A stretch of DNA of 47,853 nt, taken from a virus. The notes beneath the pieces are model-generated. The model did no database searches, was not told the DNA's origin, and was given only the letters and a program-made list of their open reading frames with translations. The DNA is taken from positions 1-47,853 of IMG/VR virus record IMGVR_UViG_3300005589_000045, one strand, 5' to 3'. The position numbers and the translations under genes were made by a program. Positions 5,580 to 40,574 of this stretch are shown piece after piece; the first letter of the stretch is position 1; every line of letters begins with the position of its first letter.

Positions 5580-5603
5580 GATACGAAATAAGAGCATAAT
5601 AAC

Positions 5604-22598: not shown

Positions 22599-22629
22599 TA
22601 CATTTACATATTTAAATCATATAAATAAA

Positions 22630-22728
22630 ATGAAAGTAATACCAGGAGTAAAACCAATGAGATGTACATGTGGTGATGATGAGGAAGAAAAAGACACGGA
22701 ACCAGTTAAACCACCGCCAGGTAAATAA
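22630..22728 (+). CDS. 32-residue acidic/proline-rich small protein
   Basis: The product starts MKVIPGVKPMRCTCGDDEEE and ends PPPGK. It has a CTC pair, an acidic patch and a proline-rich end, but no signal peptide or membrane segment, so it does not look like Rz1. The stop overlaps the next start (TAATG), which suggests translational coupling with the membrane protein gene. AT-rich DNA precedes its start. Function is unknown. Confidence 0.5.
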   Translation: MKVIPGVKPMRCTCGDDEEEKDTEPVKPPPGK

Positions 22729-23608: not shown

Positions 23609-23619
23609 AATCATAAAAC

Positions 23620-24551: not shown

Positions 24552-24617
24552 CTTTTTATTTATCTATAACAGAAAAAGAAATTAAAGATCTGTTTTTTTA
24601 TGGGTTAGTGGATGATT

Positions 24618-24650
24618 AGCCGCGTGTGATTTATTGCACGTGGCTTTTTT
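24618..24650 (+). terminator. Terminator after lysis genes
   Basis: AGCCGCGTG and CACGTGGCT form a 9-bp stem (one G-U pair) with a 10-base loop and six T behind it. Confidence 0.85.
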
Positions 24651-24685
24651 ATGCAATTCATGTTGCACAACATATAATCAAAATA

Positions 24686-24714
24686 TTGCAAATTCAGTTG
24701 CATTGTTATATTTG
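24686..24714 (+). promoter_or_regulatory. Early promoter before the nuclease gene
   Basis: TTG at 24686-24688, an 18-base spacer and TATATTTG at 24707-24714 match the Bacteroidota consensus. The start codon lies 28 bases downstream. Confidence 0.75.
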
Positions 24715-24741
24715 CAAAAAGCTAATAATTAAAACATAAAC

Positions 24742-25620: not shown

Positions 25621-25622
25621 CC

Positions 25623-26390: not shown

Positions 26391-26571
26391 AAATTATGTT
26401 GCTAAAACTGAAATCAATGAATTATCCTGTTATGGATGCGCCTTTGATTCAGAAAATCACTTTTATAGCTGCACACTTACCAAAGAAGAAAAAACAAAAA
26501 TGATTGTAAAACATGGTGATTGTATTCCTAATCGCTATATTTACACTCTCATAAACGCTAAAAGCGTATAG
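26371..26571 (+). CDS. Small Cys-rich protein (CYGC family)
   Basis: This 66-residue protein contains SCYGCAFDSENHFYSCTLTK, followed by a basic stretch with KHGDCIPN. The Cys pattern CxxC, C, C could hold a metal. It resembles the small protein at 39930 (TCYGCIFNT, then 'IIMKHG'), so the two are probably paralogues. It overlaps the end of the membrane HTH gene by 20 bases. Function is unknown. Confidence 0.65.
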   Translation: MEELKPENYVAKTEINELSCYGCAFDSENHFYSCTLTKEEKTKMIVKHGDCIPNRYIYTLINAKSV

Positions 26572-26606
26572 TTTCTTTCATGAAACGTGTTTTAGATTAT
26601 TACACT

Positions 26607-26641
26607 AAAAAGGTGCATTCAAATGTGGATGCACCTTTTTT
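26607..26641 (+). terminator. Terminator after early operon 1
   Basis: AAAAAGGTGCAT and ATGCACCTTTTT form a 12-bp stem with a 10-base loop, and a T tract follows. It could work on both strands. Confidence 0.88.
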
Positions 26642-26676
26642 TTATATCAATTTTTAAAAAAATAATACCAAAACAC

Positions 26677-26719
26677 TTGCACTGTTTTAAAATGTCATTA
26701 CATTTGCTGATGTAATAAT
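26677..26719 (+). promoter_or_regulatory. Early promoter with shared 21-bp element (copy 1)
   Basis: TTG at 26677-26679, a 19-base spacer and TACATTTG at 26699-26706. The 21 bases from 26699 (TACATTTGCTGATG, then TAATAAT) are identical to those from 40554. Within it ACAT..ATGT forms an inverted pair. The shared bases include the expected transcription start. Confidence 0.75.
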
Positions 26720-26735
26720 TATTAAAACGAAAATC

Positions 26736-27005
26736 ATGAAAGTTGTATTCATTGAAAACAGGCATTGGAAAGCTTTAAACCGCTTATTGCAGTTATCAGA
26801 ATCATTAGTTGAAATTTCAATTAAAACATACATCATTAATGAAGACTTCATTACTGGTGATGTAGCTGAATTATGCGATTATTTATCAGAAACACAATTG
26901 GGTGAATTGGCATTAAGGTTTGAGATTGAAACCGGTATTGGTTCAGGATCAATTGTTGATAAATTACAAAGCATCAGTTTTAAGTTTGTTGAATCTAATG
27001 AATAA
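26736..27005 (+). CDS. Unknown early protein
   Basis: This 89-residue acidic protein (MKVVFIENRHWKALNRLLQL) is mixed helix and strand by pattern, with no motif I recognise. It follows the early promoter by about 20 bases and precedes a 55-residue gene. It is probably part of an early regulatory operon. Confidence 0.6.
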   Translation: MKVVFIENRHWKALNRLLQLSESLVEISIKTYIINEDFITGDVAELCDYLSETQLGELALRFEIETGIGSGSIVDKLQSISFKFVESNE

Positions 27006-27008
27006 GCT

Positions 27009-27176
27009 ATGCAGATCATTCAAATCAGAATTGGTGATGTACTTTGCCAGTTTAAAAGCTTAACAAACATTGGTGCTGATTTTATACAGCATAGGATGAT
27101 CCGAGAAAAAGCAACAGATGCAATGATCAAATCAATGATTAAAGCAAAGCATGTTGCATTGTATTTATCTAATTAA
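27009..27176 (+). CDS. Small unknown protein, 55 residues
   Basis: The product begins MQIIQIRIGDVLCQFKSLTN and is basic at its end (IKAKHVALYLSN). It starts three bases after the upstream stop, so it is probably co-translated. No motif is seen. Confidence 0.5.
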   Translation: MQIIQIRIGDVLCQFKSLTNIGADFIQHRMIREKATDAMIKSMIKAKHVALYLSN

Positions 27177-27181
27177 AAACA

Positions 27182-27242
27182 GGGCTGCATATCTTAATGT
27201 TTATTGCTCATTTTGAATTGTCCAAACCAAGGTGTGCAGCCC
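27182..27242. repeat. Inverted repeat GGGCTGCA/TGCAGCCC in leader of HTH gene
   Basis: GGGCTGCA (27182-27189) and TGCAGCCC (27235-27242) are perfect 8-base inverted arms 45 bases apart. No T tract follows, so it is not a normal terminator. The arms could be operator half-sites or a long-loop leader RNA stem just before the HTH gene start at 27257. Confidence 0.45.
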
Positions 27243-27256
27243 ATTAAAAAACGCAT

Positions 27257-27556
27257 ATGACACAAGGCGAAGTAATCAAGCGAATTATTAAATCAAGAGG
27301 TTTATCCAATGCTGAAGTAGCAAGAATTGCTGGTATTGAAAGGATGTATATTACCAACATAACACAGGGTACATTGAAAGGCGGTAAAAAGTATGATGCA
27401 TTGTTAAAAGCTCTTAATGTACCAAATCAAATTATCATGTTTAAAACTTTGGTAGTTGAAAATATTGAAGATCCTGCACAGAAAACATTAATGGAAAAGA
27501 TTTATGCAGGAATGATTGCAGAACTTGATATTGTGTTTAACTGCAAAATTGATTGA
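27257..27556 (+). CDS. XRE-like HTH regulator
   Basis: This 99-residue protein has an HTH in residues 1-45 (IIKSRGLSNAEVARIAGIER, then 'YITNITQGTLKGG') typical of XRE/Cro-type repressors. The C-terminal half is helical and may form dimers. It is the best candidate for a lysogeny or early-gene regulator, as no CI-like protein with a peptidase domain is visible. The inverted repeat in its leader may be its operator. Confidence 0.7.
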   Translation: MTQGEVIKRIIKSRGLSNAEVARIAGIERMYITNITQGTLKGGKKYDALLKALNVPNQIIMFKTLVVENIEDPAQKTLMEKIYAGMIAELDIVFNCKID

Positions 27557-27560
27557 ATCA

Positions 27561-28274
27561 ATGAAATACACAGTATTCATAAATCAGAAAGCAGTTATTG
27601 ATAATGATTTTGATTTGGATTTTAATGATATGGCAATCTTTGACTTAATGAAGGATGCATCAAACGGTCCTAGAATTAAAAAAATGTTCTTTGATGATTG
27701 TACATATTATGAATTCAGATGGAAATGGATCATTCAACAATTGCCTATGCTAAAAATAAAGACAAGGCAGGGGATTAATAAAAGAATTCAAAAATTGATT
27801 GATGCAGAAATTGTTATTGGATATCCAAATAATAGTGCTGAAAACACTGCATTCTTTAGGTTTGGAAGAAACTATGAATTATTCATTTATGCTGATGCAA
27901 AACGTGTAAACAAAAACTTACAACCTGTAAACGAAAGTTACCAAACGTGTAAACAAGAATTTACACAACCTGTAAACGAAAGTTTACACAATAAGAAAAT
28001 AAATAATAAGAATAATAAAACAAGTAAGTTTATTGCACCAACAGAATCTGAAGTAATTGAATATTTCAAAGAACATGGACAAACTGTTGAATTAGCAAAA
28101 AAGGCTTTCAAACATTATCAAATTGGTGAATGGCATGATGCCAATGGCAGGAAGGTAAAAAACTGGAAACAGAAAATGCATACTAATTGGTTTAAGGATA
28201 AAAAGACTATATTAAATCAAGGTTCTTTGTTTCAAGAATCAACAGTTTCAAATTATTCATTGACAGATGACTAA
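27561..28274 (+). CDS. Putative replication initiator / replisome organiser
   Basis: This 237-residue protein starts at ATG 27561. Residues 20-110 look like a winged-helix domain (ASNGPRIKKMFFDD, 'KTRQGINKRIQKLIDAEIVI'). A polar linker with a short repeat (LQPVNESYQTC and TQPVNESLHN) follows. The last 80 residues (SEVIEYFKEHGQTVELAKKA, 'KVKNWKQKMHTNWF') resemble the C-terminus of many phage replication proteins. Four bases of overlap join it to the helicase loader gene. The origin may lie in the gene, at the linker repeats, as in lambda O. Confidence 0.65.
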   Translation: MKYTVFINQKAVIDNDFDLDFNDMAIFDLMKDASNGPRIKKMFFDDCTYYEFRWKWIIQQLPMLKIKTRQGINKRIQKLIDAEIVIGYPNNSAENTAFFRFGRNYELFIYADAKRVNKNLQPVNESYQTCKQEFTQPVNESLHNKKINNKNNKTSKFIAPTESEVIEYFKEHGQTVELAKKAFKHYQIGEWHDANGRKVKNWKQKMHTNWFKDKKTILNQGSLFQESTVSNYSLTDD

Positions 28275-29127
28275 AAATAACTTAATTAGCAAAGAAGATT
28301 ATATAAAGCCAAAGCAAAGCAGGTATTATGTGCCTAAGATAAATAAGAAGCTAACACAAAACGCTATGAATAAAACAACCAGATACATACAGACAATGAA
28401 ACCACTTTATGGTGAAAAATATGTGGTTGAGGCAAATAAGGTATTAAACATTGCAGAATCAATTGAAACCCAATTTACAATGCAAGTTGAAGCACCTGAA
28501 GCGCATAAAATGGCAATCCGTGTAAATTCATATCTTGAACAAGAAGCAAAAGAATGTGGAACAAAGTTTAAACCGATTGATTATGAAGTTGTATTAAAGA
28601 TTCTTGAAAAGAATAGAAATGTGTATAGGAATCTGTTGTTTTATTTTCGCGGTTATGAATCTGGTGCATACTCTGTTGATAAAGGGATATACATACATGG
28701 TGGTACAGGTTCAGGAAAAACATTAGTAATGCAGGTGTTTAAAGAGTACACAAAAAAATGCTTACAGCAAAATTCATTTAGAAAGGTTCAGTGTTCAGAT
28801 ATTTCTGATAAGGCAATTAAGCGTGGTATTGATGCAATGGATGAATTTATAAGAACACCTGTGACACATATTCCAATCAACATGTACATTGAGGATTTTG
28901 GGGCAAGTGCCAAACATGTAAAATGGATGGGAAACAACATTGAGCCAATGGGTGAGTTAATTATGAGGCGTTACCGGTATTATGAGAAGTATGGAACATT
29001 AACACATGTATGCACTAACATCAAGCCTGAAGATATATCAAAGCATTTTGATCCACGCGTTAGTTCAAGGATAAATAAGATGTTTAACTTTATTAATTTT
29101 CATGGTTTTGATTGGCGTAAGATTTAA
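28267..29127 (+). CDS. DnaC-like AAA+ helicase loader
   Basis: This 286-residue protein should load the host replicative helicase. Walker A is GGTGSGKT (145-152), Walker B is MYIEDFG (206-212), sensor 1 is in 'THVCTNIKPEDISK', and a basic 'SSRINKM' lies near the end, a likely arginine finger. The N-terminal 100 residues are helical. With the gene before it, it makes an O/P-like pair. It is followed by accessory cluster A. Confidence 0.88.
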   Translation: MTKNNLISKEDYIKPKQSRYYVPKINKKLTQNAMNKTTRYIQTMKPLYGEKYVVEANKVLNIAESIETQFTMQVEAPEAHKMAIRVNSYLEQEAKECGTKFKPIDYEVVLKILEKNRNVYRNLLFYFRGYESGAYSVDKGIYIHGGTGSGKTLVMQVFKEYTKKCLQQNSFRKVQCSDISDKAIKRGIDAMDEFIRTPVTHIPINMYIEDFGASAKHVKWMGNNIEPMGELIMRRYRYYEKYGTLTHVCTNIKPEDISKHFDPRVSSRINKMFNFINFHGFDWRKI

Positions 29128-29134
29128 TTATTTA

Positions 29135-29275
29135 CTAACGTCGGGCGGTAAATTCAGTTCAGCCCTGCATTTGAGGAACGAAAATGAATAAAGGGCTTAA
29201 TTGGATTTAATGTTTGTTAGGATTACGTCCGATCGATCGACCACGAAAGTAAATAGAAACACCGCCCGACGTTAG
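29135..29275. repeat. 141-bp attC-like element with 15-bp inverted arms
   Basis: CTAACGTCGGGCGGT (29135-29149) and ACCGCCCGACGTTAG (29261-29275) are perfect 15-base inverted repeats around 111 bases. Inside, AGCCCT (29161-29166) and AGGGCT (29192-29197) form a second stem, and GATCGATC occurs in the spacer. Ends of the form TAAC...GTTA and the length of 141 bp recall integron attC sites, though the core does not fit the strict GTTRRRY rule. It could also be a structured RNA. It starts eight bases after the helicase loader stop. Confidence 0.5.
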
Positions 29276-29541
29276 GGCTTATTTTTAACATTGGGAATTT
29301 AAAATTTATATCATGAAAATATTTGGAAAACACATAAGAAGAGCAAAAACAATCCGAAAAATATTACAATCAAGGCCAGTAGATTATCAGTACTTTGATC
29401 GTTTATTGACAATATATGAATGCAGGCTATTCGGATTGTGTATTTATAGAACCACTCATTCGTTCGATAAACTTAAATATAAATTTATAAATGGAGATGT
29501 TAATAGTGAGAGAGGAACGAGCGATCGTATTAAGCCCTAAC
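29271..29541. repeat. 11-bp inverted repeats flanking small gene
   Basis: GTTAGGGCTTA (29271-29281) and TAAGCCCTAAC (29531-29541) are perfect inverted copies on both sides of the gene at 29313-29540. The right copy contains the gene's stop codon. The gene is therefore bracketed like a cassette. Confidence 0.55.
29313..29540 (+). CDS. Small basic protein of cassette 1
   Basis: This 75-residue protein (MKIFGKHIRRAKTIRKIL..) is basic and has no known motif. The stop TAA is part of TAACGG, a wording shared by other genes of the accessory clusters. The gene is bracketed by 11-bp inverted repeats and follows the attC-like element, so it may be a mobile cassette. Codon choice (CGA GCG) differs from the phage core. 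Confidence 0.55.
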   Translation: MKIFGKHIRRAKTIRKILQSRPVDYQYFDRLLTIYECRLFGLCIYRTTHSFDKLKYKFINGDVNSERGTSDRIKP

Positions 29542-29579
29542 GGTTTGGTATATGAACTGAAATTAAAATTTTTTAAGCG

Positions 29580-29804
29580 ATGGATGATTTAAATAAAGAA
29601 CTAGCAATTTACAATGATAAAGTAGGTGAAATATTAGTAACTGAACAAGGGCAGAAGTTTAAGATACTCAGCCGAACTAAAACAACATTAACAATTGAAC
29701 CATGCAGCGAATTATTATGCATAAAGGAATACAATATGGATAAACAACAGGAATTAACCACTTTTATAAAAGATGGTAAGATTGTGATCGAAACGAGCGG
29801 GTAG
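29580..29804 (+). CDS. Small protein of cassette 2
   Basis: This 74-residue protein (MDDLNKELAIYNDKVGEILV) has a beta-rich SH3-like pattern (GQKFKILSRTKTTLTIEP), but I cannot name a family. The start context AAGCGATGGA is shared with genes at 36466 and 37582. It ends in TAG and is followed by a 257-base region without a gene. Confidence 0.55.
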   Translation: MDDLNKELAIYNDKVGEILVTEQGQKFKILSRTKTTLTIEPCSELLCIKEYNMDKQQELTTFIKDGKIVIETSG

Positions 29805-29940
29805 GCAATTTTAATTTTTGTTTATGTACCGTGTTGTATTGAGCACAGCGGCGTTTTAATGCAATACAACGGTTTGAATATGTTGCGTGGCGAATTAACC
29901 CACTTAAATAACAACGAAGCACTGACGTAGTTTTCTTTTC

Positions 29941-29958
29941 TTTTTGTGCGTTGGCAAA
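29941..29958. repeat. 18-bp repeat TTTTTGTGyGTTGGCAAA (copy 1)
   Basis: It matches 36950-36967 at 17 of 18 positions. Both copies lie after a small accessory gene and shortly before a promoter and the next gene. Confidence 0.55.
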
Positions 29959-30007
29959 CAATTTTAGAATAAAATTAAGTATTTACTGAAAAAAATTGTT
30001 AAAACAC

Positions 30008-30038
30008 TTGCATTGCATTAAGTATATGCTTATATTTA
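30008..30038 (+). promoter_or_regulatory. Promoter in cluster A
   Basis: TTG (30008-30010), 20 bases, TATATTTA (30031-30038). The upstream words AAAACACTTGCA.TG equal those of the promoter at 26677. Confidence 0.55.
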
Positions 30039-30061
30039 CACTATAATTAAAAACAAACAAG

Positions 30062-30283
30062 ATGAATATACAGGCTAAAGAACTTAAAACAGGGATGACA
30101 GTAAGAAATGGATATTGGACTGTTGATGTTGAGAATATTACAGAAGGTAAGCTGAAAAACGGAAAAAAGACTTTTACTATAAGCGGTAAAGGCGTGATGA
30201 AATATACAGCAAGTAATAAAACTCGAAACTACGACTTAGTTGAATTTACTTTTAAGGAAAATACCAAAGTAGACGTAATATGA
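30062..30283 (+). CDS. Small unknown protein of cluster A
   Basis: This 73-residue protein (LKTGMTVRNGYWTVDVENIT) has a beta-rich pattern that recalls small SH3/KOW-like folds, but no family can be named. It stands after its own promoter and overlaps the next gene by four bases (ATGA). Confidence 0.6.
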   Translation: MNIQAKELKTGMTVRNGYWTVDVENITEGKLKNGKKTFTISGKGVMKYTASNKTRNYDLVEFTFKENTKVDVI

Positions 30284-30627
30284 AAATACAAGAACTAAAA
30301 AAAGAAACTGGGCTAACTCAAAAAGACATAGCCCAGTTTTTTAACATGACTTACGGAGCATTTGCTAATAGTAGTGCAAAAGAACGCTATGAAAATGCAC
30401 TATGTAATTTTTACTCCTTTTTGAGGGGAGAAAAAGAAAAGAAAACGGGCGAACAGCACGAACCTAACAACGAAGCAAAAAGCCAGCCATGCAATATATA
30501 CGATGTTAGCTTTAGCGAGGAACGAGCGGAGGTTTGCACTTGTCAAGACCCTGAGAATGGTTTTAAAAGCAACGACTGCCCGATACACCATTGGAAGTAT
30601 GATAATAGCTTATTTAAGCAAACTTAA
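30280..30627 (+). CDS. HTH-like protein with Cys/His tail
   Basis: This 115-residue protein has an N-terminal helix-turn-helix pattern (TGLTQKDIAQFFNMTYGAFA) and a C-terminal Cys/His cluster (CTCQDPENG, then CPIHHWK) that could bind metal. The middle is polar. Two TAA codons follow, the second inside TAACGG. It may be a small regulator gained as a cassette. Confidence 0.6.
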   Translation: MKIQELKKETGLTQKDIAQFFNMTYGAFANSSAKERYENALCNFYSFLRGEKEKKTGEQHEPNNEAKSQPCNIYDVSFSEERAEVCTCQDPENGFKSNDCPIHHWKYDNSLFKQT

Positions 30628-30689
30628 AGCTAACGGTTACAGATATACACAGTTCGGATTAAATAACAATAACTTAAATAATAGATAAA

Positions 30690-30899
30690 ATGAATGAAAA
30701 TGCAGAAAATTCAAATGAAACTCAGGAATCCGAATTGGGTATATCTGATGTTAGAACACGTAATTTTATGATACGTGATAGAGCAAGATTAATGAAAGAA
30801 AGTTACACTAATTTAGGAAAAAGAGATACAGAATGGGAAAAAGAATATTACAAAGGAGTACTTACACTGATTGATGATATAATGAAATTGACTGAGTGA
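30690..30899 (+). CDS. Small unknown protein, 69 residues
   Basis: The product (MNENAENSNETQESELGISD) is acidic at the start and helical after it, with no motif. It is the last gene of cluster A. The leader-like repeat at 30911 follows. Confidence 0.5.
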   Translation: MNENAENSNETQESELGISDVRTRNFMIRDRARLMKESYTNLGKRDTEWEKEYYKGVLTLIDDIMKLTE

Positions 30900-30910
30900 T
30901 TATGTGTTCT

Positions 30911-31001
30911 AACTAGCTCTTACATACATTCCATATAAAAAGCAAGTAATCAAATAATTAAAACAGCATAATTGTGCAGTAAACTAATTTTTGAACAAAA
31001 T
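30911..31001 (+). repeat. Decayed copy of the integrase leader and first codons
   Basis: These 91 bases align without gaps to 38318-38408, starting with a perfect 17-mer (AACTAGCTCTTACATAC); I count 59 identities of 91. The TTG at 30972 aligns with the integrase ATG at 38379, and the reading LCSKLIFEQNK compares with MCKVKLFEQQL. It is in frame with the RuvC-like gene behind it. I read it as a relic of a duplication or recombination event. Confidence 0.6.
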
Positions 31002-31004
31002 AAA

Positions 31005-31571
31005 ATGAACAAAATACAAACCATTTCAGACATCTACGCGATAGATAAAATCATTGCAATAGATCCTGGTAAATCAGGCGGCATTGCTATTTGGACGCCA
31101 AATGAACTGCAGGTGATAAAAATGCCAGAAACCACAAAACAATTTTCTGATATCATTATTGGAGAAAAGAAGAAAACACCAAATCTTATTGTTGCAATGG
31201 AAAAGGTTCAATTAAGGGATGATGACAACATACCAGGCAAACAATACAGAATTGCAAAAATGATGAAAAACTATAATTCATTAATTGCTGCAGTTGAAAT
31301 TGCTGATATTGCATTATGGAATATTTATCCTATAACATGGCAAAATGGATTGTATTTCAAACATAAAGGGTTTTCAAAAGAAGATCGAAAAAACGCTTAT
31401 AAAGAATTTGCACAAAAAACATTTACAGACATTAGGGCAACTTTATGGAATGCAGATGCATTGTGTATTTTAGAATATTCAAAACGCCAAGTCAGCAAGA
31501 ACTTTGCATGGGTATTAAAGCAACTTCCACAAAACATGCTGTATAACATACGAATAGCAAATGCAATTTAA
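31005..31571 (+). CDS. RuvC-like Holliday junction resolvase
   Basis: This 188-residue protein has the RNase H-fold acidic residues of RuvC: Asp in 'IIAIDPGKSGGIAIW', Glu in 'VAMEKVQ', and Asp in 'WNADALCILEY'. It probably cuts branched DNA made in replication and recombination before packaging. I start at ATG 31005. An in-frame upstream extension to the TTG at 30972 is similar to the integrase N-terminus and probably not part of the original gene. Confidence 0.85.
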   Translation: MNKIQTISDIYAIDKIIAIDPGKSGGIAIWTPNELQVIKMPETTKQFSDIIIGEKKKTPNLIVAMEKVQLRDDDNIPGKQYRIAKMMKNYNSLIAAVEIADIALWNIYPITWQNGLYFKHKGFSKEDRKNAYKEFAQKTFTDIRATLWNADALCILEYSKRQVSKNFAWVLKQLPQNMLYNIRIANAI

Positions 31572-31583
31572 ATACTAACTTAT

Positions 31584-31591
31584 TACATTTG
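31584..31591 (+). promoter_or_regulatory. -7 element before SMC-like gene
   Basis: TACATTTG matches TAnnTTTG and lies 22 bases upstream of the start at 31614. There is no TTG at the best distance, so the promoter may be weak. Confidence 0.45.
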
Positions 31592-31613
31592 ATAATCACA
31601 AAAAAACAATAGC

Positions 31614-33014
31614 ATGTTAAAGAAATTACAATTGCACAATTTCAAAATAATAGAAGATTTTGAAATGGAATTCAACGGTGGTGTGTATTTAGTCACCGCA
31701 GAAAATGAATTTGGCAAATCAACAGTCATTGGAAGTATATTCAAACTTTTAACAGGTGATAGGTCTGATAATCTATTGCAAAGAGGCAAAGCAAAAGGTT
31801 TTGCGAAAGCTGAATTTGAACACAATGGTAAGGTTTGGATTGTTGAGTTGAGATTTACTACGAAAAACAAACGAGGCCGTTTAATTATTACTGAAAAAGG
31901 CAGCCATTTCACATCAAACAATAAAAGCGTTTTGGAATCTATTTTTGGTTATTCAGATTTTGATGTATCAACATTCATTGATTGGTCAAATTCAAAACCA
32001 GGTAGAAGAAAGCAGGTTGAAATGATCAAATCATTGTTTTCTGAAAAAGTGGTTAAAAAGATCAATGCAATGGATGCAAAGATTGAATCAATCATGGAAA
32101 AGCGCAAAACTAAAGGAAAAGAAGCGTACACACAGAATGCAATTGTAAAGAATTACCAAATTGATGATGAATTCATTAATGAGTATTCAAAGCCATTACC
32201 ACTTGAACCAATCCGTGAAAAACTTGATAAGTGCAACGCAAGAAATGCCAATATTGAAAATATTCAAATATCCAGCAAAGGGAAAAAATCACAATTAGAT
32301 AATTGGGATCAATACACCAATGAAATATTAGATCCATATTCACAAAAGGTTGATGAAGCTGTTTTGAAAATCACTATGTTAGAAGCCGAATTAAAGAATG
32401 CAAAAGAACAGCATATATTGAGGGAGCGAGAACAGCAGGAAAAGCAGGATGAATTGGAATTGGAATTTATTTCAGAATCAGAACAACTCAAAAATCAGGA
32501 AGAATGGTTAACTAAAAATAAAGTTGAACCAATGTCCGAATTGAATTTACAATTAGAAGCAGCTATTGAGCACAACAACAACAATAAAAAACTTGATGAA
32601 TATCACAAAAGTGTTGAAAAGCTTAATAAACTGCAGGAGCAGCATGATAAATTTGATTCAGAGATTGAAAAAAAGCGTGAAGAAAGAACAGTAATTGTTG
32701 CAGCAAATCCACTTCCTGTTTCTGGATTAACATTTGATCTTGATCAGCTTTATTTAAATGGCATACCATTCACTGAAGATGAAGTTAGTACATCGCAAAT
32801 CATGGAAACATGTGTACGTTTAATGATTGCAAAGAATCCATCATGCAAAATGTTTAAAATAGGCCGAGGTGAATCATTGGGTGCAGAAAAATTTAAAGCA
32901 ATCGTTGATTTTGCAAGAAAAGAAGGTTTTCAAGGATTTGTTGAAGAAGTTGTAAGAGGTCAGAAGGAATTAAACGTTTTTGAATATACAGAAGAAATAG
33001 AAGATGAATCATAA
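31614..33014 (+). CDS. SMC/SbcC-like ATPase
   Basis: This 466-residue protein has a split ATPase head: the N-terminal part has a variant Walker A (AENEFGKST, 29-37), a long coiled coil covers about 200-365, and the C-terminal part has 'VSTSQIMETCVRLMIAKNP', in place of the ABC signature. The Walker B region is degenerate (MFKIGRGESLGAEKF). Phages often carry such small SMC-like proteins beside recombination genes. The role is probably DNA end processing. It overlaps the next gene by 11 bases. Confidence 0.8.
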   Translation: MLKKLQLHNFKIIEDFEMEFNGGVYLVTAENEFGKSTVIGSIFKLLTGDRSDNLLQRGKAKGFAKAEFEHNGKVWIVELRFTTKNKRGRLIITEKGSHFTSNNKSVLESIFGYSDFDVSTFIDWSNSKPGRRKQVEMIKSLFSEKVVKKINAMDAKIESIMEKRKTKGKEAYTQNAIVKNYQIDDEFINEYSKPLPLEPIREKLDKCNARNANIENIQISSKGKKSQLDNWDQYTNEILDPYSQKVDEAVLKITMLEAELKNAKEQHILREREQQEKQDELELEFISESEQLKNQEEWLTKNKVEPMSELNLQLEAAIEHNNNNKKLDEYHKSVEKLNKLQEQHDKFDSEIEKKREERTVIVAANPLPVSGLTFDLDQLYLNGIPFTEDEVSTSQIMETCVRLMIAKNPSCKMFKIGRGESLGAEKFKAIVDFARKEGFQGFVEEVVRGQKELNVFEYTEEIEDES

Positions 33015-33432
33015 ATTATATCTTTCTGGTGTAATTACTAATGATGCAAAGTTAAAAACATATGAGGCTGGTGAATATGCGGCGTTTTTAAAGGACAATA
33101 AGGGCAAAAGGTTCACAATGGTACTAGATGCAATAGATATTGAAAAAAAACGGGCTTATTTGGCTTATTATTGGGCTGTAATCATACCGCGAATATATGA
33201 AGGATATAAAAATACAGGTGTTTCAACAACAAAAGCAGATACTGAAAGAAAAATGCGCGTTATTTGCCAACTTTATCATGAAACACCAAAAGATGATCAT
33301 TCTGGCTATGAAAAAAGGTTACTTTCAGTCAGTGAATTGAATGATGTTGAATTGTATGAATATGCATTTCGATTAAAGATTATATCAAACGAATTTTTAA
33401 ATGTGGATTTTGATGATCCAATTACTTACTAA
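33004..33432 (+). CDS. Unknown protein, possibly NinB-like
   Basis: This 142-residue protein has a central segment (KKRAYLAYYWAVIIPRIYEG) and a following Cys/His/acidic stretch which recall the NinB-type recombination proteins in size and style. The match is weak. It overlaps the SMC-like gene and precedes another unknown gene by 13 bases, inside the recombination module. Confidence 0.45.
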   Translation: MNHKLYLSGVITNDAKLKTYEAGEYAAFLKDNKGKRFTMVLDAIDIEKKRAYLAYYWAVIIPRIYEGYKNTGVSTTKADTERKMRVICQLYHETPKDDHSGYEKRLLSVSELNDVELYEYAFRLKIISNEFLNVDFDDPITY

Positions 33433-33445
33433 TAAATTTTAAAAA

Positions 33446-34021
33446 ATGGCAAAAAAAAGCATTGACAATGGACCCGGCTTAGGGCATTTTACTGTTCAGA
33501 AAATCAACAAACAGACTAATGGAGGATTGCACATTGAACACACCTCAGTTTATCCAATGGGTGATGATCAATTTGATGATGAAAACGATAAAAAAACATC
33601 ATCAAGGGCACCAATAGATGAATTTAAAAAGGAATTGAATTCACTAAGTGTGTATGTTGCAAAGATCCTGAATTACTCTAGTATTTTGAACATTTCATCA
33701 GACACGAAACTGAAGACAACACCACAACAATCAAAATACATTACATCTTTATGGAATGACTACGTGAATAAAATCACTATTAATGGCGTGAAGATTTGGA
33801 TGGCAGGAATGATGGTCACATCATGTGAAATTAATTATTCAATTATTGGTTTAAGCAGTCAGAGCATGGACCATAAAACCTATAAAATTGATGTTGCTGA
33901 GGGTTGTGATTTTGTTCATAAATTTGAAGATGAATTACGTGATTCATTGCAAAAATTGGTTGTTTACTCATATGACTATGTTCATAAAAGAGTAGGTGCA
34001 CAATTACAAGTAATAGAATAA
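33446..34021 (+). CDS. Unknown protein of recombination module
   Basis: This 191-residue protein (MAKKSIDNGPGLGHFTVQK) has a mixed alpha/beta pattern, with no catalytic motif I can see. Its stop overlaps the HNH gene start (TAATG), so it is probably coupled to it. It could be a DNA-binding partner of the nuclease module. Confidence 0.55.
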   Translation: MAKKSIDNGPGLGHFTVQKINKQTNGGLHIEHTSVYPMGDDQFDDENDKKTSSRAPIDEFKKELNSLSVYVAKILNYSSILNISSDTKLKTTPQQSKYITSLWNDYVNKITINGVKIWMAGMMVTSCEINYSIIGLSSQSMDHKTYKIDVAEGCDFVHKFEDELRDSLQKLVVYSYDYVHKRVGAQLQVIE

Positions 34022-34470
34022 TGTACCCAATTTTAATAAATACCAAGTCCGATTACAACCTTGTGTTGGGCTTGGGTTTTTCTCCATTAAATGATTGGCA
34101 AAGATTCAAGATCGATATTTTATTAAGGATTGAATTACAACGTGCAATATTTGGTCATACAATCTTAGGACCCGGTAACATTCCACAGGCAAATCAACGC
34201 TTTTATCATTTTTGTTGGGAACATTCAATAGTAAAATGCTGTGAAGAATGCCAATTACCATTGAGTGAATATAGTGCTGTTTTTATTTCTCATATACTAA
34301 GCCGTGCAGGTTATCCAGAAATGGCACATGATCCACGCAATCACAATTTATTATGTGGAACATGTCACCATAAATGGGAAAAAGACAACAACAGCAGGTC
34401 ATTAATGAAGATTAGGAAAAAGAATAATAGAATCATAAGACTTTTAAATGCAGATTATAAAACCATCTAA
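34021..34470 (+). CDS. HNH-type nuclease (NinG-like layout)
   Basis: This 149-residue protein has CCEECQLPL, then 'FISHILSRAGYPEMAHDPRN', and 'LLCGTCHHKWEKD'. The two CxxC pairs and the SHILSR...HDPRNHN segment make an HNH zinc-finger nuclease fold. NinG/Rap-type phage proteins with this layout act in recombination at branched DNA. The location in the recombination module fits. Confidence 0.72.
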   Translation: MYPILINTKSDYNLVLGLGFSPLNDWQRFKIDILLRIELQRAIFGHTILGPGNIPQANQRFYHFCWEHSIVKCCEECQLPLSEYSAVFISHILSRAGYPEMAHDPRNHNLLCGTCHHKWEKDNNSRSLMKIRKKNNRIIRLLNADYKTI

Positions 34471-34481
34471 AAAAAGAAATC

Positions 34482-35012
34482 ATGCAAACATTTTCAAAAA
34501 AACCGGATCCGGATAGAAATGATCATTTCAAAGCAATCACTGTTAAACAACCATTTGCTGATGCTTTGATTGATGGTATGCGTATCGTATTGCGAGAAAA
34601 ACCAACAGAATTCAGAGGTGTTGTTGTTGTCTGCAGCTCATATGATGTAATGCCTGGAATTATAGGATCAAAACATTACAAATTAGGAAGAACGATTTGT
34701 GTTGTCGAAATTAAAGATTGTGTAAAAGTCTCAGATATGAGCCCATCAGATTGGCGCAAGCATTCAAAACTTTCACTTTCTGATAAAACAAAATATAAGC
34801 ATACATATGCATTAATAATTGATTATCATCGTGCATTGGTCAATATACCTGTTTTGGAAAAAAAAGGCATTTGGAACCTAACAGTCAAAAAAGGATCTTT
34901 AATATGCATTGAATCAATCGAAAATGAAAAATACTTTCCAATTAGCACTTGGACTTTGATTAGTGTTTCAACTTTAATTATATTGATGATAATTTTGATA
35001 TTAACAATATAA
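34482..35012 (+). CDS. ASCH-like domain protein with C-terminal membrane anchor
   Basis: This 176-residue protein has an ASCH/PUA-like domain in residues 15-140: KAITVKQPFADALIDGMRIV, 'LREKPTEFRGVVVVCSS', 'GRTICVVEIKDCVKVSDMS'. ASCH domains bind RNA or modified nucleotides. The last 23 residues (TWTLISVSTLIILMIILILT) form one membrane segment, so the domain would be tail-anchored on the inner face of the membrane. I do not know this combination from other phages. Confidence 0.7.
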   Translation: MQTFSKKPDPDRNDHFKAITVKQPFADALIDGMRIVLREKPTEFRGVVVVCSSYDVMPGIIGSKHYKLGRTICVVEIKDCVKVSDMSPSDWRKHSKLSLSDKTKYKHTYALIIDYHRALVNIPVLEKKGIWNLTVKKGSLICIESIENEKYFPISTWTLISVSTLIILMIILILTI

Positions 35013-35021
35013 CCCTAAGTC

Positions 35022-35288
35022 ATGCAATACGAAAAAATCATTATCAGAAAGGACAATACAAAAATTAGAATTATTGTAAAAATCAATGAAACAGCTAAAA
35101 AGATTAGTTTGCTTCATATGGTTAGAGTAAGAACAAAAAAGGGCTGGAATAAGCCAAAAACCAACATTGTGTCCGATAATGAAATTTTACAAGCAAGAAA
35201 AGAAGCAAAAGAATTTTTAAAACTTAAATCCAAACCTCATGAATGTGATAATAGTAAAATGCACAAAGAAAAAGTATTGGTATCATAA
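35022..35288 (+). CDS. Unknown small basic protein
   Basis: This 88-residue protein (MQYEKIIIRKDNTKIRIIVK) is basic and beta-rich at the start, with a helical end. No motif is recognised. It lies nine bases after the ASCH-like gene. Confidence 0.55.
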   Translation: MQYEKIIIRKDNTKIRIIVKINETAKKISLLHMVRVRTKKGWNKPKTNIVSDNEILQARKEAKEFLKLKSKPHECDNSKMHKEKVLVS

Positions 35289-35322
35289 ATATATTGGTCA
35301 TACATTTCAAATAAAATCAGAC

Positions 35323-35415
35323 ATGAAAGAAGGTAAATTTGAAGTAGTAAACAATGAACAGTCTAATGATGCGCTTTTAATAGATCCATCTGATTGCACA
35401 TTGAAAGATGATTAA
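35323..35415 (+). CDS. Very small acidic protein, 30 residues
   Basis: The product begins MKEGKFEVVNNEQSNDALLI and ends KDD. The start has an AT-rich leader, and a terminator follows. It may be real, but the length is short. Confidence 0.35.
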   Translation: MKEGKFEVVNNEQSNDALLIDPSDCTLKDD

Positions 35416-35446
35416 TATTAAAACATGTTGAATAACATATGATTGA

Positions 35447-35479
35447 ATGGTGTATTTATGGATACACCATTTTATTTTT
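35447..35479 (+). terminator. Terminator before DUF3850-like gene
   Basis: ATGGTGTAT and ATACACCAT form a 9-bp stem with a six-base loop, then TTTATTTTT. The T tract overlaps a promoter -7 box. Confidence 0.8.
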
Positions 35480-35480
35480 G
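35473..35480 (+). promoter_or_regulatory. -7 element before DUF3850-like gene
   Basis: TATTTTTG fits TAnnTTTG, 21 bases upstream of the start at 35502. It shares bases with the terminator tail. Confidence 0.45.
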
Positions 35481-35501
35481 TATAAACTTAATATATAAAA
35501 A

Positions 35502-35948
35502 ATGGCAGTTCATATTTTAAAAATAATGCCGGAGTACTATGTTGAAATCGAAGCTGGCAATAAATCTTTTGAATTAATAAAAAATGATCGTGATTTTAAA
35601 GTTGATGATGTAGTAATAATGGAGGTTGTCAAAGATGGCACACCTACCAATGAAAAGACAGCGCCAAGGATAATAACTTATGTATTCAAAGGTGGTAAGT
35701 TTGGTTTGTCATCTGATTATTGCATTTTTGAAACAAAGCCAATCGGATCCATAACAAAACCACAACCAATCTTACCTGAAATTGACCTTGCTTTTTCACA
35801 ACAAGCAATTGGAAATTGTGAATTCATTACCATTGCCAAAGAAAAGGGCTTTGATCCTGAAGATGATGTGACAATTACATTGTTTTCGATGATCTTTTTT
35901 GAAGGTTATCAAATGGCAAAATCAATTGTTGATAAACTAACCAAATAA
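35502..35948 (+). CDS. DUF3850-like (ASCH/PUA superfamily) protein
   Basis: This 148-residue protein follows the DUF3850 pattern: 'HILKIMPEYYVEIEAGNKSF', 'ELIKNDRDFKVDDVVIM', 'RIITYVFKGGKFGLSSDYCI'. The usual ELR is ELI here. The C-terminal 55 residues (after residue 90) are an added helical part. DUF3850 proteins belong to the ASCH/PUA group and may bind RNA or nucleotides. It is the second ASCH-like protein within 1.5 kb. Confidence 0.78.
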   Translation: MAVHILKIMPEYYVEIEAGNKSFELIKNDRDFKVDDVVIMEVVKDGTPTNEKTAPRIITYVFKGGKFGLSSDYCIFETKPIGSITKPQPILPEIDLAFSQQAIGNCEFITIAKEKGFDPEDDVTITLFSMIFFEGYQMAKSIVDKLTK

Positions 35949-35950
35949 CC

Positions 35951-36184
35951 ATGGCTTTGATCGTAAGAAAAGGTGATTATTTGAAATATGAATTAAAAAG
36001 ACCTGATTTTGATAATATTTCAGTGAATTCAATAACACCACCGGATGATGCACCTGAAGATGATGTTGTAATTGTAGATGTAGAAGTTTTACAAACAGAT
36101 GGTTATTCATCATTGATAATATTTTACAATCCTTATACAGGTCAGAAAAACAACAGGGCCATTTCAAATTCAAGACTAAAATAA
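35951..36184 (+). CDS. Unknown small protein, 77 residues
   Basis: The product (MALIVRKGDYLKYELKRPDF) is acidic and beta-rich. It starts two bases after the DUF3850-like gene and its stop overlaps the next start (TAATG). Probably co-translated. No family recognised. Confidence 0.55.
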   Translation: MALIVRKGDYLKYELKRPDFDNISVNSITPPDDAPEDDVVIVDVEVLQTDGYSSLIIFYNPYTGQKNNRAISNSRLK

Positions 36185-36387
36185 TGGAAGAAAAGAAATT
36201 ATATTGCAATGATGGTAAAATTTGCAAACACTTTTTATTTGCTAAAGGAATAAAAGGCAATATAGATCATTTGTTGTGTAAAAAATATAGATTAGTACCA
36301 AAAGGCAAACAACCAAAAGAAAGAGTGCAAATCTGTATTGATAAAAATAGCTTTGAAGTATTAGAGATTAAAGGGGATTTATTTTAA
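36184..36387 (+). CDS. Small Cys-containing protein, 67 residues
   Basis: The product (MEEKKLYCNDGKICKHFLFA) has Cys at residues 8, 14 and 32, and one near 51, which could bind metal. The stop TAA is part of TAACG, as in the accessory clusters. It is the last gene before cluster B. Confidence 0.55.
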   Translation: MEEKKLYCNDGKICKHFLFAKGIKGNIDHLLCKKYRLVPKGKQPKERVQICIDKNSFEVLEIKGDLF

Positions 36388-36465
36388 CGTAAAAATTTAT
36401 GATGCGGCTACACTTAGAACTTATAGAAAGTAAATAGAAAATTATAACCAAATAAAACATTAGCG

Positions 36466-36882
36466 ATGGATAGCATTACATTAACAAGACAACAAATTTT
36501 AGATTGGATTAAGGAAAATAATGATAGTATCGAAGAGAATAAGGAGAACGCCAGAGCAGACAAAAGCGAGAATGATAGTGAAGGTTGGCAATTTTATATG
36601 GACGATAATAAAAAATTACATGGAGAAAACGACGCCCTACGACAGCTTTTGAATATGATGGATACGAGCGATGGCAAGAAGCAACAAGAAAACATAAGTA
36701 GCTGCATTATAAATAGTGTTAGCCACTGTGCCTTTCAATTATGCCCGAAATGTAACGGACAGGGTACAATGAGTAAGCCGCCCCATATACCTGGCGATGT
36801 TAATGAATGGACTAGTAGCCAAACTTCTTTTACTTGCGATGTTTGCAACGGAGAAAAAATACTCAAAACGCATAGTGGGTAA
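36466..36882 (+). CDS. Protein with DnaJ-like zinc finger (cluster B)
   Basis: This 138-residue protein has a helical, charged N-terminal part and a C-terminal Cys cluster: CPKCNGQGTMSKPPH, then 'TCDVCNGEKIL'. The CxxCxGxG repeats are like the DnaJ zinc domain. Similar C-termini occur in small Bacteroidota phage proteins. The start context TTAGCGATGGA and stop TAACGA link it to the other cassette-like genes. Codon choice is richer in G+C than the phage core. Confidence 0.65.
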   Translation: MDSITLTRQQILDWIKENNDSIEENKENARADKSENDSEGWQFYMDDNKKLHGENDALRQLLNMMDTSDGKKQQENISSCIINSVSHCAFQLCPKCNGQGTMSKPPHIPGDVNEWTSSQTSFTCDVCNGEKILKTHSG

Positions 36883-36949
36883 CGACCTGTGTATGTTGCT
36901 GTATTTTGTTTTTCACAAAATATGCAATATTACACTTTGTTATACCCCG

Positions 36950-36967
36950 TTTTTGTGTGTTGGCAAA
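36950..36967. repeat. 18-bp repeat TTTTTGTGyGTTGGCAAA (copy 2)
   Basis: See the copy at 29941-29958. Here the element closes the 85-base stretch after the Cys-rich gene at 36466, with a promoter 28 bases further on. Confidence 0.55.
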
Positions 36968-36995
36968 AATAATTTACAGAAAAGTGTATTTTTAT

Positions 36996-37026
36996 TTGGT
37001 AGTTAATACAGAAAGCTGTATATTTG
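36996..37026 (+). promoter_or_regulatory. Promoter in cluster B
   Basis: TTG (36996-36998), a 20-base spacer and TATATTTG (37019-37026) match the Bacteroidota consensus. The gene starts at 37055. Confidence 0.7.
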
Positions 37027-37054
37027 ATGTATAGAAATTTAATAAACAGAAATT

Positions 37055-37258
37055 ATGACAGCTTTAGAAAACATCACAAACCAAATGAAAACTTTAGAGG
37101 TAGAAATTGCAAGACAACAAGCTTACATTGCAAAACACGGAGATTCAAATAACGCTGGCGAATACGATGAGCAATGGGAACAATACAAAGAAGAAGCTCA
37201 ATACAACCTAAACAAATGGGATGCAATGAAACAAATGAGAGATGGACTCAAAAACTAA
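37055..37258 (+). CDS. Small coiled-coil protein (cluster B)
   Basis: This 67-residue protein (ITNQMKTLEVEIARQQAYIA) is predicted as one long coiled coil. It overlaps the next gene by 17 bases. No family recognised. Its own promoter lies upstream. Confidence 0.6.
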   Translation: MTALENITNQMKTLEVEIARQQAYIAKHGDSNNAGEYDEQWEQYKEEAQYNLNKWDAMKQMRDGLKN

Positions 37259-37502
37259 CGAAGAAATAATAAAACGCCACGCACCTGATTGGGTGCAGTG
37301 GCACGACCATTGTAAAAAACAAGTATTAGAAGCTATGGCAGAGAAAGACAAAGGAATAATTAATTGGCACGAATTAAGTAGAAAATTATCTGGTAATGGT
37401 CAAAATATTCGACCAAATAAAATACCCCAAAAATACGAACGAAAAGTAAAAAGATTACTGCTACTGTTGAAGTTGTGGGAGCGTTGGGCTAATGGGGTAT
37501 AA
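37242..37502 (+). CDS. Unknown helical protein (cluster B)
   Basis: This 86-residue protein (KTNEEIIKRHAPDWVQWHDH) is helical and basic at its end, with two Trp-rich patches. The stop TAA is in TAATGG, a variant of the cluster stop word, and the repeat at 37511 follows. It is coupled to the coiled-coil gene by overlap. Confidence 0.6.
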   Translation: MDSKTNEEIIKRHAPDWVQWHDHCKKQVLEAMAEKDKGIINWHELSRKLSGNGQNIRPNKIPQKYERKVKRLLLLLKLWERWANGV

Positions 37503-37551
37503 TGGCTACAGGTATGGTTAGTTGCCTGTTGAATAACCCACTAACTTTAAA
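37500..37551. repeat. Cassette-end repeat (copy 1)
   Basis: After TAATGG come GGTATGGTTAGTTGCC and TGTTGAATAACCCAC. The same words AGTTGCC and TGTTGAATAACC stand after the stop of the gene at 37582. GGTTA and TAACC form an inverted pair. Confidence 0.5.
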
Positions 37552-37581
37552 ACAATAGTAAAAACTTAAAAATAGCGAGCG

Positions 37582-37884
37582 ATGGAAAGTATAGCAATAG
37601 ACGTGCTTAGAGATAAGTTAATAGAAATTGACAAAGGCTTAGATGGCTGTAATAAACATGGAGACTCCTTTAAAATGTTAAGACATATTAGAACAGAATT
37701 AAATAGCGCCATAACTATACTAGAAAGGTGTGGTGGGAAAATGACAAAACAAGAATTTGGGCAATTAACTATACCTGATGTTATGCTTTTGCGCTGTTAT
37801 GTGTGTGATGGTGTAGGGTTAATGCCTCATGACCATATGCTAGGGTGTAATTGTTGTGGCGGCAAGGGGCAGCGTAAAGTATAA
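37582..37884 (+). CDS. Protein with DnaJ-like zinc finger (cluster B, second)
   Basis: This 100-residue protein has a helical N-terminus and a C-terminal Cys cluster: CYVCDGVGLMPHDHM, then CNCCGGKGQ. It is like the gene at 36466 in its CxxCxGxG pattern but not in the N-terminus, so a shared finger on different bodies is likely. The start context GCGAGCGATGGA and the stop TAACGG fit the cluster. Confidence 0.62.
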   Translation: MESIAIDVLRDKLIEIDKGLDGCNKHGDSFKMLRHIRTELNSAITILERCGGKMTKQEFGQLTIPDVMLLRCYVCDGVGLMPHDHMLGCNCCGGKGQRKV

Positions 37885-37925
37885 CGGTTTAGGTAAGTTG
37901 CCGTTGCTTGTTGAATAACCTACCA
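37882..37925. repeat. Cassette-end repeat (copy 2)
   Basis: TAACGG, then TTTAGGTAAGTTGCC and TGTTGAATAACCTACC. TAGGT and ACCTA form an inverted pair. It is a diverged copy of 37500-37551. Confidence 0.5.
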
Positions 37926-37962
37926 AAGATAATGCGAGATATAAACTTCAAATAAAATTTTT

Positions 37963-38307
37963 ATGGCCAGAATTATAGAAATATTGCAAAAAGAATACGG
38001 CAGATTGGAATATGCAATGAAATTAGGTAAAAGCATTGGAAAAGAAAATGCACCTGAATACAAACAACTTGAAATTGAGCTTAAAGAAACAGGTGAAGCA
38101 ATAAAAATTTTACGCACGAATGCCGATACGGGAGAAAAGCAATGCAATTTACCTGTTGTTGTATGCAGTACTTGGTTATTCTTCTACGAAGGCGAGAAAG
38201 ATAAACCACAATTTAAAGTACAGGCAAACACACAATGGGAAGCCTACCAAATAGCAGCTGAAACTTATGGCCCGCAAGTTGAAGACATGATGTATTGTAT
38301 GATTTAG
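37963..38307 (+). CDS. Unknown protein at the end of cluster B
   Basis: This 114-residue protein has a helical start (RIIEILQKEYGRLEYAMKLG) and a beta-rich end (WLFFYEGEKDKPQFKVQANT and 'YGPQVEDMMYCM'). No family recognised. It is the last gene before the integrase leader. Confidence 0.6.
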   Translation: MARIIEILQKEYGRLEYAMKLGKSIGKENAPEYKQLEIELKETGEAIKILRTNADTGEKQCNLPVVVCSTWLFFYEGEKDKPQFKVQANTQWEAYQIAAETYGPQVEDMMYCMI

Positions 38308-38317
38308 TATTGCATAC

Positions 38318-38408
38318 AACTAGCTCTTACATACTAACGTTTTAAAAGTGTAATAATCAATAATATAAAACAGTGTTTATGTGCAAAGTTAAATTATTTG
38401 AACAGCAA
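38318..38408 (+). repeat. Integrase leader, intact partner of the 30911 copy
   Basis: The 17-mer AACTAGCTCTTACATAC (38318-38334) and the following 74 bases, which include the integrase start codon, align without gap to 30911-31001. This may hold a control site or part of attP, but no core site can be named. Confidence 0.55.
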
Positions 38409-39182
38409 TTAAGATTGAATAAGTCAGAACAAACAGTAAAGAATTACACTAAGCAATTTAAACTGTTTGTTGATTACTTCAAAAGTCAAGACATCAGGTA
38501 TTTATCAGACCAATCCATTAAAGAATATATTCTTTTCTTACATACTATATATGGATATTCTGCAATTGTTCATGCTATTTCTGCAATCAAGTTTTATTAC
38601 AAGCATTTAAACAGTAGGAAAAGACAATTAAATCTTCCATTACCAGCTAAACCAAAAATAGTGCCGGCTGTATTAAGCATCGATGAAGTAAAAAGAATGA
38701 TCAAGTACACTATGAACTTAAAACACAAAGCAATTATTGAAACAATGTTTTGTCATGGTTTACGTAGATCTGAATTAATCAATCTTAAAATAACAGATAT
38801 TGATTCAGCAAATATGGAACTGAAGGTTATTCAATCGAAAGGTTTGAAAGATCGAAATATCCCATTATCAAGATCTTGTTTGAAAACATTAAGGGATTAT
38901 TACAAGGCATTCAGGCCAAAAGAATACATGTTTAATGGTCAATCTTCAAAACAATATTCAACCACTTCACTTTGTAACGTAATTAAACAAGCCGCAAAAA
39001 GAGCAAGTATAAATAAAAACGTTCACCCACATACACTAAGGCATTCATTCGCTACTTACTTAGTTTCTATTGATAAAAGTTTGGCAAAAATAAGTGATTG
39101 GATGGGACACAGTAACACAAAAACAACTGAAATATATTGCCACATAGTACATGAAGATAATCCAGTTAATTTAGTCGCATAA
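38379..39182 (+). CDS. int: Tyrosine recombinase (phage integrase)
   Basis: This 267-residue protein has an N-terminal SAM-like core-binding domain (residues 5-85) and a catalytic domain with the full set: Arg in 'CHGLRRSEL' (R129), Lys in SKGLKDR (K154), HTLRH (H218, R221), 'WMGHSN' (H244) and Tyr in 'TEIYCH' (Y253). It resembles XerC/D-type phage integrases. It suggests a temperate phage or recombination with a host dif-like site. The ATG at 38379 was chosen; an upstream GTG at 38373 is also in frame. Confidence 0.93.
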   Translation: MCKVKLFEQQLRLNKSEQTVKNYTKQFKLFVDYFKSQDIRYLSDQSIKEYILFLHTIYGYSAIVHAISAIKFYYKHLNSRKRQLNLPLPAKPKIVPAVLSIDEVKRMIKYTMNLKHKAIIETMFCHGLRRSELINLKITDIDSANMELKVIQSKGLKDRNIPLSRSCLKTLRDYYKAFRPKEYMFNGQSSKQYSTTSLCNVIKQAAKRASINKNVHPHTLRHSFATYLVSIDKSLAKISDWMGHSNTKTTEIYCHIVHEDNPVNLVA

Positions 39183-40457: not shown

Positions 40458-40499
40458 CAGGTGTATTGTGAAAGCTTTACACCTGTTTTTGTTTTTTTT
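40458..40499 (+). terminator. Terminator after integrase-region operon
   Basis: CAGGTGTA and TACACCTG form an 8-bp stem with a 12-base loop, followed by two T tracts. Confidence 0.78.
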
Positions 40500-40531
40500 A
40501 AATAAATAATAAAAAATAAATACGAATATGC

Positions 40532-40574
40532 TTGTGATGTTTTAAAAAAGTACTACATTTGCTGATGTAATAAT
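40532..40574 (+). promoter_or_regulatory. Promoter with shared 21-bp element (copy 2)
   Basis: TTG (40532-40534), a 19-base spacer and TACATTTG (40554-40561). The 21 bases from 40554 equal those from 26699. It drives the gene at 40594. The two operons may therefore be controlled together. Confidence 0.75.

Follow-up and report, generated by a model that had tools for sequence, protein, structure and literature searches.

The 47.9-kb virus record IMGVR_UViG_3300005589_000045, analysed here over its full 47,853 nucleotides (nt) and called the window below, carries co-directional genes and no tRNA genes. It contains two clusters of small open reading frames (ORFs), cluster 1 at 29134-30927 and cluster 2 at 36184-38334, and a gene for a tyrosine recombinase that follows cluster 2 (Table 1). 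Both clusters close with the same 17-mer, AACTAGCTCTTACATAC (at 30911 and 38318; chance expectation 0.00), which is absent from the preliminary description of this DNA, made from the letters and their translations. This shared ending is the decisive feature. The short words that recur at the gene ends form the cores of attC-like hairpins, each hairpin goes with the gene downstream of it, and the adjoining tyrosine recombinase comes from a family whose neighbours are such arrays. As far as the sequence can tell, it is highly probable that both clusters are arrays of cassettes in an integron-like system which the phage carries and which is made up of a recombinase, an attI site and cassettes.

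What marks one unit off from the next? Genes of both clusters had been described as ending in or close to TAACG, which holds at 29538, 30631, 36385, 36880 and 37882, with TAATGG at 37500. The + strand has 29 copies of TAACG, and 7 of the 29 lie at or within about 12 nt of the stop of a coding sequence (circular shift, p = 0.0006), an enrichment showing that the words are not placed at random with respect to genes; the copy at 37256, inside an ORF overlap, is near a stop yet is not a boundary. The three shared gene starts were also found, GCGATGGA occurring exactly three times (29577, 36463 and 37579) and always at a gene start, as were the related words behind the stops, TTTTTGTGYGTTGGCAAA twice (29941 and 36950) and GTTGCCTGTTGAATAACC within a 24-nt pair that is 88% identical (37521/37903). 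The words GCGATGGA and GTGYGTTGGCAAA appear to be versions of a single leader. Leader words accompany attC sites in some other viral contigs, and the motif is not general in recombinase-bearing arrays (6/105 vs 8/525 random). Two expectations did not survive: the clusters had been thought to differ in composition from the core, and no clear difference is seen (GC fraction 0.32-0.35 vs 0.29-0.39 in the rest); and a profile of the gene-end word did not work, sites in the window scoring no better than shuffles when the profile covers just the left core. It is the hairpins and the array-end repeat that carry the signal.

The clear hairpins in the window number three. Their left end reads NNTAACG, often overlapping the preceding stop, their right end reads GTTRNN, and they have the shape of an integron attC site. 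Hairpin 1 opens cluster 1 directly after the core gene 28267-29127; its bottom-strand DNA fold has z = -4.2, with 0/200 shuffles as good, and its fold energy is -28.3 kcal/mol on the coding strand vs -24.8 kcal/mol on the other. The hairpin at 30629-30755 scored 45.7 in the finder, the shuffle maximum being 29.7, and was also recovered by the repeat search. The stretch 29536-29845 is a possible hairpin with a gene in its loop, which the hairpin finder did not pick up. An extra small palindrome is present at 29833-29876 (GTTGTATTG..GCGTTTTAATGC..CAATACAAC), and its loop word CGTTTTAATG recurs in attC loops of the Polaribacter phage P12002L, discussed below, and of L014, L128 and L131 (L numbers denote the viral loci compared). 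Family searches gave no NCBIfam match for the 75-amino-acid (aa) ORF at 29313-29540 and no match above cut-off for the 138-aa ORF at 36466-36882. A search of Rfam produced no match, and a plasmid search found nothing.

Table 1. Features of the two clusters and the adjoining recombinase gene (window coordinates)
Feature	Position	Strand	Evidence and remarks
attC-like hairpin 1	about 29134..29276	+	core ACTAACG; 15-bp perfect outer arms CTAACGTCGGGCGGT / ACCGCCCGACGTTAG
Cassette ORF, 75 aa	29313..29540	+	ORF list; stop overlaps core CCTAACGG at 29536
Core CCTAACGG with arms 29547-29570 / 29807-29830	29536..29845	+	repeat search; arms 83% complementary, whole gene enclosed
Cassette ORF, 74 aa	29580..29804	+	starts in GCGATGGATG
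Leader word TTTTTGTGCGTTGGCAAA	29941..29958	+	follows attC sites in viral loci L004, L024, L087, L099, L100, L112
Cassette, two overlapping ORFs (30062-30283, 30280-30627)	30062..30627	+	ORF list
attC-like hairpin	30629..30755	+	core GCTAACGG; 21-nt arms 90% complementary; right box GTTAGA
Cassette ORF, 69 aa	30690..30899	+	start codon inside loop of hairpin 30629..30755
attI-like array end, copy 1	30911..30927	+	TTCTAAC / TAGCTCTTACATAC; exact 17-mer, two copies
ORF, 67 aa	36184..36387	+	opens cluster 2; ends in core TTTTAACG (36385)
Cassette ORF, 138 aa	36466..36882	+	starts in GCGATGGA; paired CxxC motifs, zinc-finger-like
attC-like hairpin	about 36876..36950	+	GGTAACG ... TTTGTTATACC; fold z = -3.9, 0/200 shuffles as good
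Leader word TTTTTGTGTGTTGGCAAA	36950..36967	+	word scans
Cassette, two overlapping ORFs (37055-37258, 37242-37502)	37055..37502	+	ends in core-like TATAATGG
Cassette ORF, 100 aa	37582..37884	+	paired CxxC motifs; ends in core TATAACGG
Last cassette ORF, 114 aa	37963..38307	+	ORF list
attI-like array end, copy 2	38318..38334	+	TATTGCATACAAC / TAGCTCTTACATAC; 61 nt before recombinase start codon
Tyrosine recombinase, 267 aa, proposed cassette integrase	38379..39182	+	Pfam PF00589, 1.4e-33

The catalytic residues of the recombinase, R129, K154, H218, R221, H244 and Y253, are conserved (alignment A2), and its AlphaFold2 model has a mean predicted local distance difference test score of 88. Sequence, profile and fold all place it with XerA and IntI4, and XerA and other Xer-type enzymes (PDB 5hxy and 4a8e) are the closest to it in both fold and sequence. 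It lacks the additional domain of IntI: IntI4 residues from about 210 to 244 are unmatched in the alignment, and NCBIfam TIGR02249 gives 131 bits, against a cut-off of 265, in two stretches covering profile positions 9-179 and 240-303. A cassette array also precedes the recombinases at L087:2663-3463 and L143:1459-2265, and a profile built from these two and the window enzyme retrieved 63 viral-contig loci, of which 60 are clearly related; intact related recombinases have 265-268 aa. Hairpins are present in 41 of the 42 recombinase loci having at least 2 kb of upstream sequence. On the same strand as the recombinase, the 60 loci have 137 hairpins in 243 kb of upstream sequence and 0 in 315 kb of downstream sequence, and control viral loci have 0.045 hairpins per 10 kb per strand; the low rate found on the opposite strand says nothing about orientation, because the motif of the finder is asymmetric. 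Arrays of attC-like hairpins are present in the relatives as well as in the window.

Beside nearly every recombinase, at the level of sequence, lies an attI-like site with the consensus NNTAAC followed by TATTATATATA, 37-55 nt ahead of the gene (36 loci); the window forms at 38318 and 30911 are diverged. Another CTAACG is found at 38335, just past the attI-like site and ahead of the recombinase start. Eight sibling comparisons gave 94-100% identity over 400 nt rightward of the AAC and 18-55% in the 60 nt leftward, and since siblings are alike on one side of the AAC and unrelated on the other, cassettes turn over at the attI-like site. A large terminase was detectable in 11 of 36 records tested, some records being of 250-360 kb. 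In L004 the large terminase ORF (5241-7265) seems to hold an intein, overlapping an HNH-type ORF at 6611-7135.

When viral contigs were scanned with the leader and box words, true attC-plus-leader sites came to light in the six loci named with the leader in Table 1, with further ones in L124-L125, L128, L131, L134 and L142, and the scans also led to the cultured virulent Polaribacter phage P12002L. Qi et al. 2023 found the attC sites of P12002L and showed in a laboratory experiment that IntI1 recombined one of them with attI1 (PMC9892861), so the presence of attC cassettes in phages was already known. Its sibling, P12002S, has a different set of cassettes from that of P12002L. The order in P12002L is ..TTGCAGGT AACGTTTGGTTATATGG..(methyltransferase), and in P12002S ..TTGCAGGT AACGTACTTG..(other methyltransferase)..GTTGCT AACGTTTGGTTATATGG..(methyltransferase of P12002L); left flanks are common up to the AAC and the hairpin changes with the downstream gene. 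Both arrays of P12002L end in one 68-nt flank. In Muminvirus (four phages, two Flavobacterium strains), all 12 of the 12 resolved in-array breakpoints fall at NNTAAC, with flanks 99-100% identical, and again the hairpin moves together with the downstream gene. Methyltransferases, together with others, are the cassettes that differ among these Flavobacterium and Polaribacter phages. Breakpoints in the relatives thus lie at the AAC/GTT core, and because those within arrays fall at or just inside NNTAAC, they argue for an integron-like array. The earlier idea of a pool of single-gene units with common ends was essentially right, since the cultured relatives vary between the words and break at the word itself. 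Variable gene content was likewise borne out in those relatives, but not for the window, for which no differing close relative was found.

Which hairpin travels with which gene? Because the left flanks match as far as the AAC and each downstream gene comes with its own hairpin, the mobile unit is a hairpin plus the downstream ORF; the crossover falls at the end of the upstream ORF, and the attC site does not stand 3' of the ORF that it moves. Folding favours the coding strand in 101 of 105 hairpins (p = 1e-18), a result that stood when the comparison was repeated with symmetric scoring, the first search having scored G.T and not A.C, and hairpin-before-ORF polarity agrees with the coding strand being the better folder. 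Start codons or coding sequence lie inside the hairpin at 18 of 100 sites (30690 in the window), and where a start codon lies in the loop, the site encodes an N-terminal peptide. LNISDVRSS recurs among such peptides, in cassettes of L155 and L173, and can be compared with ELGISDVRT in the 30690 ORF, encoded by the right arm and box of its hairpin. Otherwise unrelated cassette proteins also share short N-termini, such as MSKEMREHIDxFKNFLxE, MKDLxHIKRFNESEEN and RKFIATTIREYLNEQ, seen in L155, L160, L167, L173, L174, L175, L186, L187 and L087. These recall the capsid-targeting N-termini of T4-type internal proteins; if the likeness is true, cassette products would be packaged or injected.

A cassette would accordingly combine an attC-like hairpin with a short leader and with one or two small ORFs, reaching to the next core NNTAA/CG, which often contains the stop codon of the ORF. 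The recombinase at 38379-39182, or a relative acting in trans, may cut folded single-stranded attC, and the attI-like AAC/TAGCTCTTACATAC, at the core. The folded substrate would be the coding strand, cut at NNTAA/C and joined to double-stranded attI or to another attC. New cassettes would enter at the recombinase-proximal end, with loss or swapping anywhere in the array, and the two 17-mers of the window could be two attI copies of one enzyme, as might also apply to the two arrays of P12002L. The arrays of the window itself may be active now or may have been so formerly. The system probably pays off by letting host-adaptation genes be exchanged rapidly, DNA methyltransferases being the named examples in the relatives. 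Judging from relatives with known hosts (Polaribacter and Flavobacterium), the hosts would be Bacteroidota.

Several observations weigh against this interpretation. The collections searched hold no sibling of the window with different cassettes, so that turnover at its own sites has to be inferred from relatives. The nearest record, L215 (IMGVR_UViG_3300027980_000082), is the same phage from another sample; its 10,066 fetched bases are 100% identical to window 20969-31034 and take in all of cluster 1, and a search with the 17-mer brought up nothing but this same phage, from another sample. No viral or phage relatives were found with the 36466 cassette protein, the 37582 protein or the window recombinase alone as queries, an SbcC-like window protein gave no close relative and only distant phage homologues, and the one match in a single scan of genome contigs was unrelated. 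The window recombinase is just 35-41% identical to other family members, and its attI differs from the consensus of the relatives. The hairpin at 36878-36949 is not better folded on the coding strand. The cores at 36385, 37500 and 37882 have no convincing right half, only the left half being recognisable, so the array may have decayed in part. At one Polaribacter junction (L 1292 / S 376-1473) the crossover lies a short way into the hairpin and not exactly at the AAC. Finally, 15 of the 17 records found via leader patterns have no recombinase (many are fragments), and no PF00589 recombinase is encoded in P12002L, P12002S or the Muminvirus phages, where the recombinase must therefore act in trans.

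Could the arrays instead be ordinary host-integron cassettes, of the kind termed clusters of attC sites lacking integron-integrases (CALINs), with the neighbouring recombinase a phage lysogeny integrase? Phage CALINs with methyltransferase cassettes are documented, P12002L included (Qi et al. 2023, PMC9892861), and several cassette-bearing phages lack a recombinase. Such an origin is nevertheless unlikely. The 60 related loci have arrays only upstream, with a conserved attI-like site before the start codon, siblings diverge exactly at the attI-like AAC, a lysogeny role is not expected in the several records of 250-360 kb with a large terminase, and the polarity of attC relative to the ORF is opposite to that of classical cassettes. 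A CALIN comprises two or more attC sites with no integrase close by; here the recombinase lies 61 nt from the end of cluster 2, and cluster 1 alone would fit. It is very improbable that the hairpins are boundary sequences guiding homologous recombination between phages with no site-specific enzyme, an idea put forward for lambdoid phages: one P12002 junction does cross inside a hairpin, in shared sequence, but most partners have just 4-7 nt in common where they join, and these are always the NNTAAC core, the hairpin sequences differ greatly while their architecture is kept, and the tight link to one recombinase family is left unexplained. Hardly credible is the idea that the hairpins, lying between small early genes, serve as transcription terminators or regulatory stem-loops and that the words are promoters or leaders, since, for all that the hairpins sit between co-directional small genes and the AT-rich attI-like motif could also hold the recombinase promoter, some hairpins contain start codons and coding sequence and the breakpoints of sibling phages fall at the left core. 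All three were rejected as main explanations. Elsewhere in the window, dispersed repeats at 5276-5306, 26607-26719 and 40492-40574, which are 77-88% identical and lie in or near intergenic stretches, are possibly shared promoters or terminators.

If the clusters are integron-like arrays, virulent phages, apparently including very large ones, run a gene-capture platform of their own, which would explain why close relatives among phages of the same hosts differ by entire methyltransferase genes. Phage mosaicism via site-specific cassettes then becomes directly testable with cultured aquatic phages. The layout is apparently widespread in viruses of Bacteroidota-type bacteria and previously unnoticed; no published description of this recombinase, attI and polarity was found in a search that left out preprints and most subscription journals. 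We lean, by a little, towards a separate integron class in these viruses, with an Xer-like integrase without the IntI domain, an attI of its own, and cassettes of reversed polarity whose attC may overlap the gene start and encode an N-terminal peptide. Such a class may have an origin in Xer separate from that of IntI, and may make up a gene pool shared by virulent phages, some of them borrowing the enzyme in trans. Has integron chemistry evolved from Xer more than once? Current tools, which search for the IntI domain and for attC sites in the classical orientation, would overlook this lineage or list it as stray CALINs.

Most of what is known of integrons comes from bacterial chromosomes and resistance plasmids. 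Like them, the phage system has a tyrosine recombinase whose 5' end faces an attI-like site and then an array of units, hairpin sites with boxes resembling RYYYAAC/GTTRRRY, turnover at attI and breakpoints at AAC/GTT. Unlike in integrons, the hairpin stands 5' of the ORF with which it moves, the ORFs point towards attI, and the recombinase (265-268 aa) is without the IntI additional region, a domain used as a criterion for integron integrases (PMC2426708). The phage CALINs of Qi et al. 2023 are likewise attC cassettes with methyltransferases in virulent phages; P12002L was described there as a CALIN with attC sites in 'divergent directions', tied to no resident recombinase (PMC9892861). What is added here is the recombinase family, the attI and a consistently reversed polarity. 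Boundary sequences of lambdoid phages are conserved short sequences at module junctions, a likeness that ends with the structured hairpin, the fixed AAC breakpoint and the linked recombinase of the phage cassettes. The Xer enzymes, closest in fold and sequence and with the same catalytic R-K-H-R-H-Y set, resolve dimers at a single dif site, whereas the phage recombinase family adjoins attI and cassette arrays, and these arrays argue for a role other than dimer resolution.

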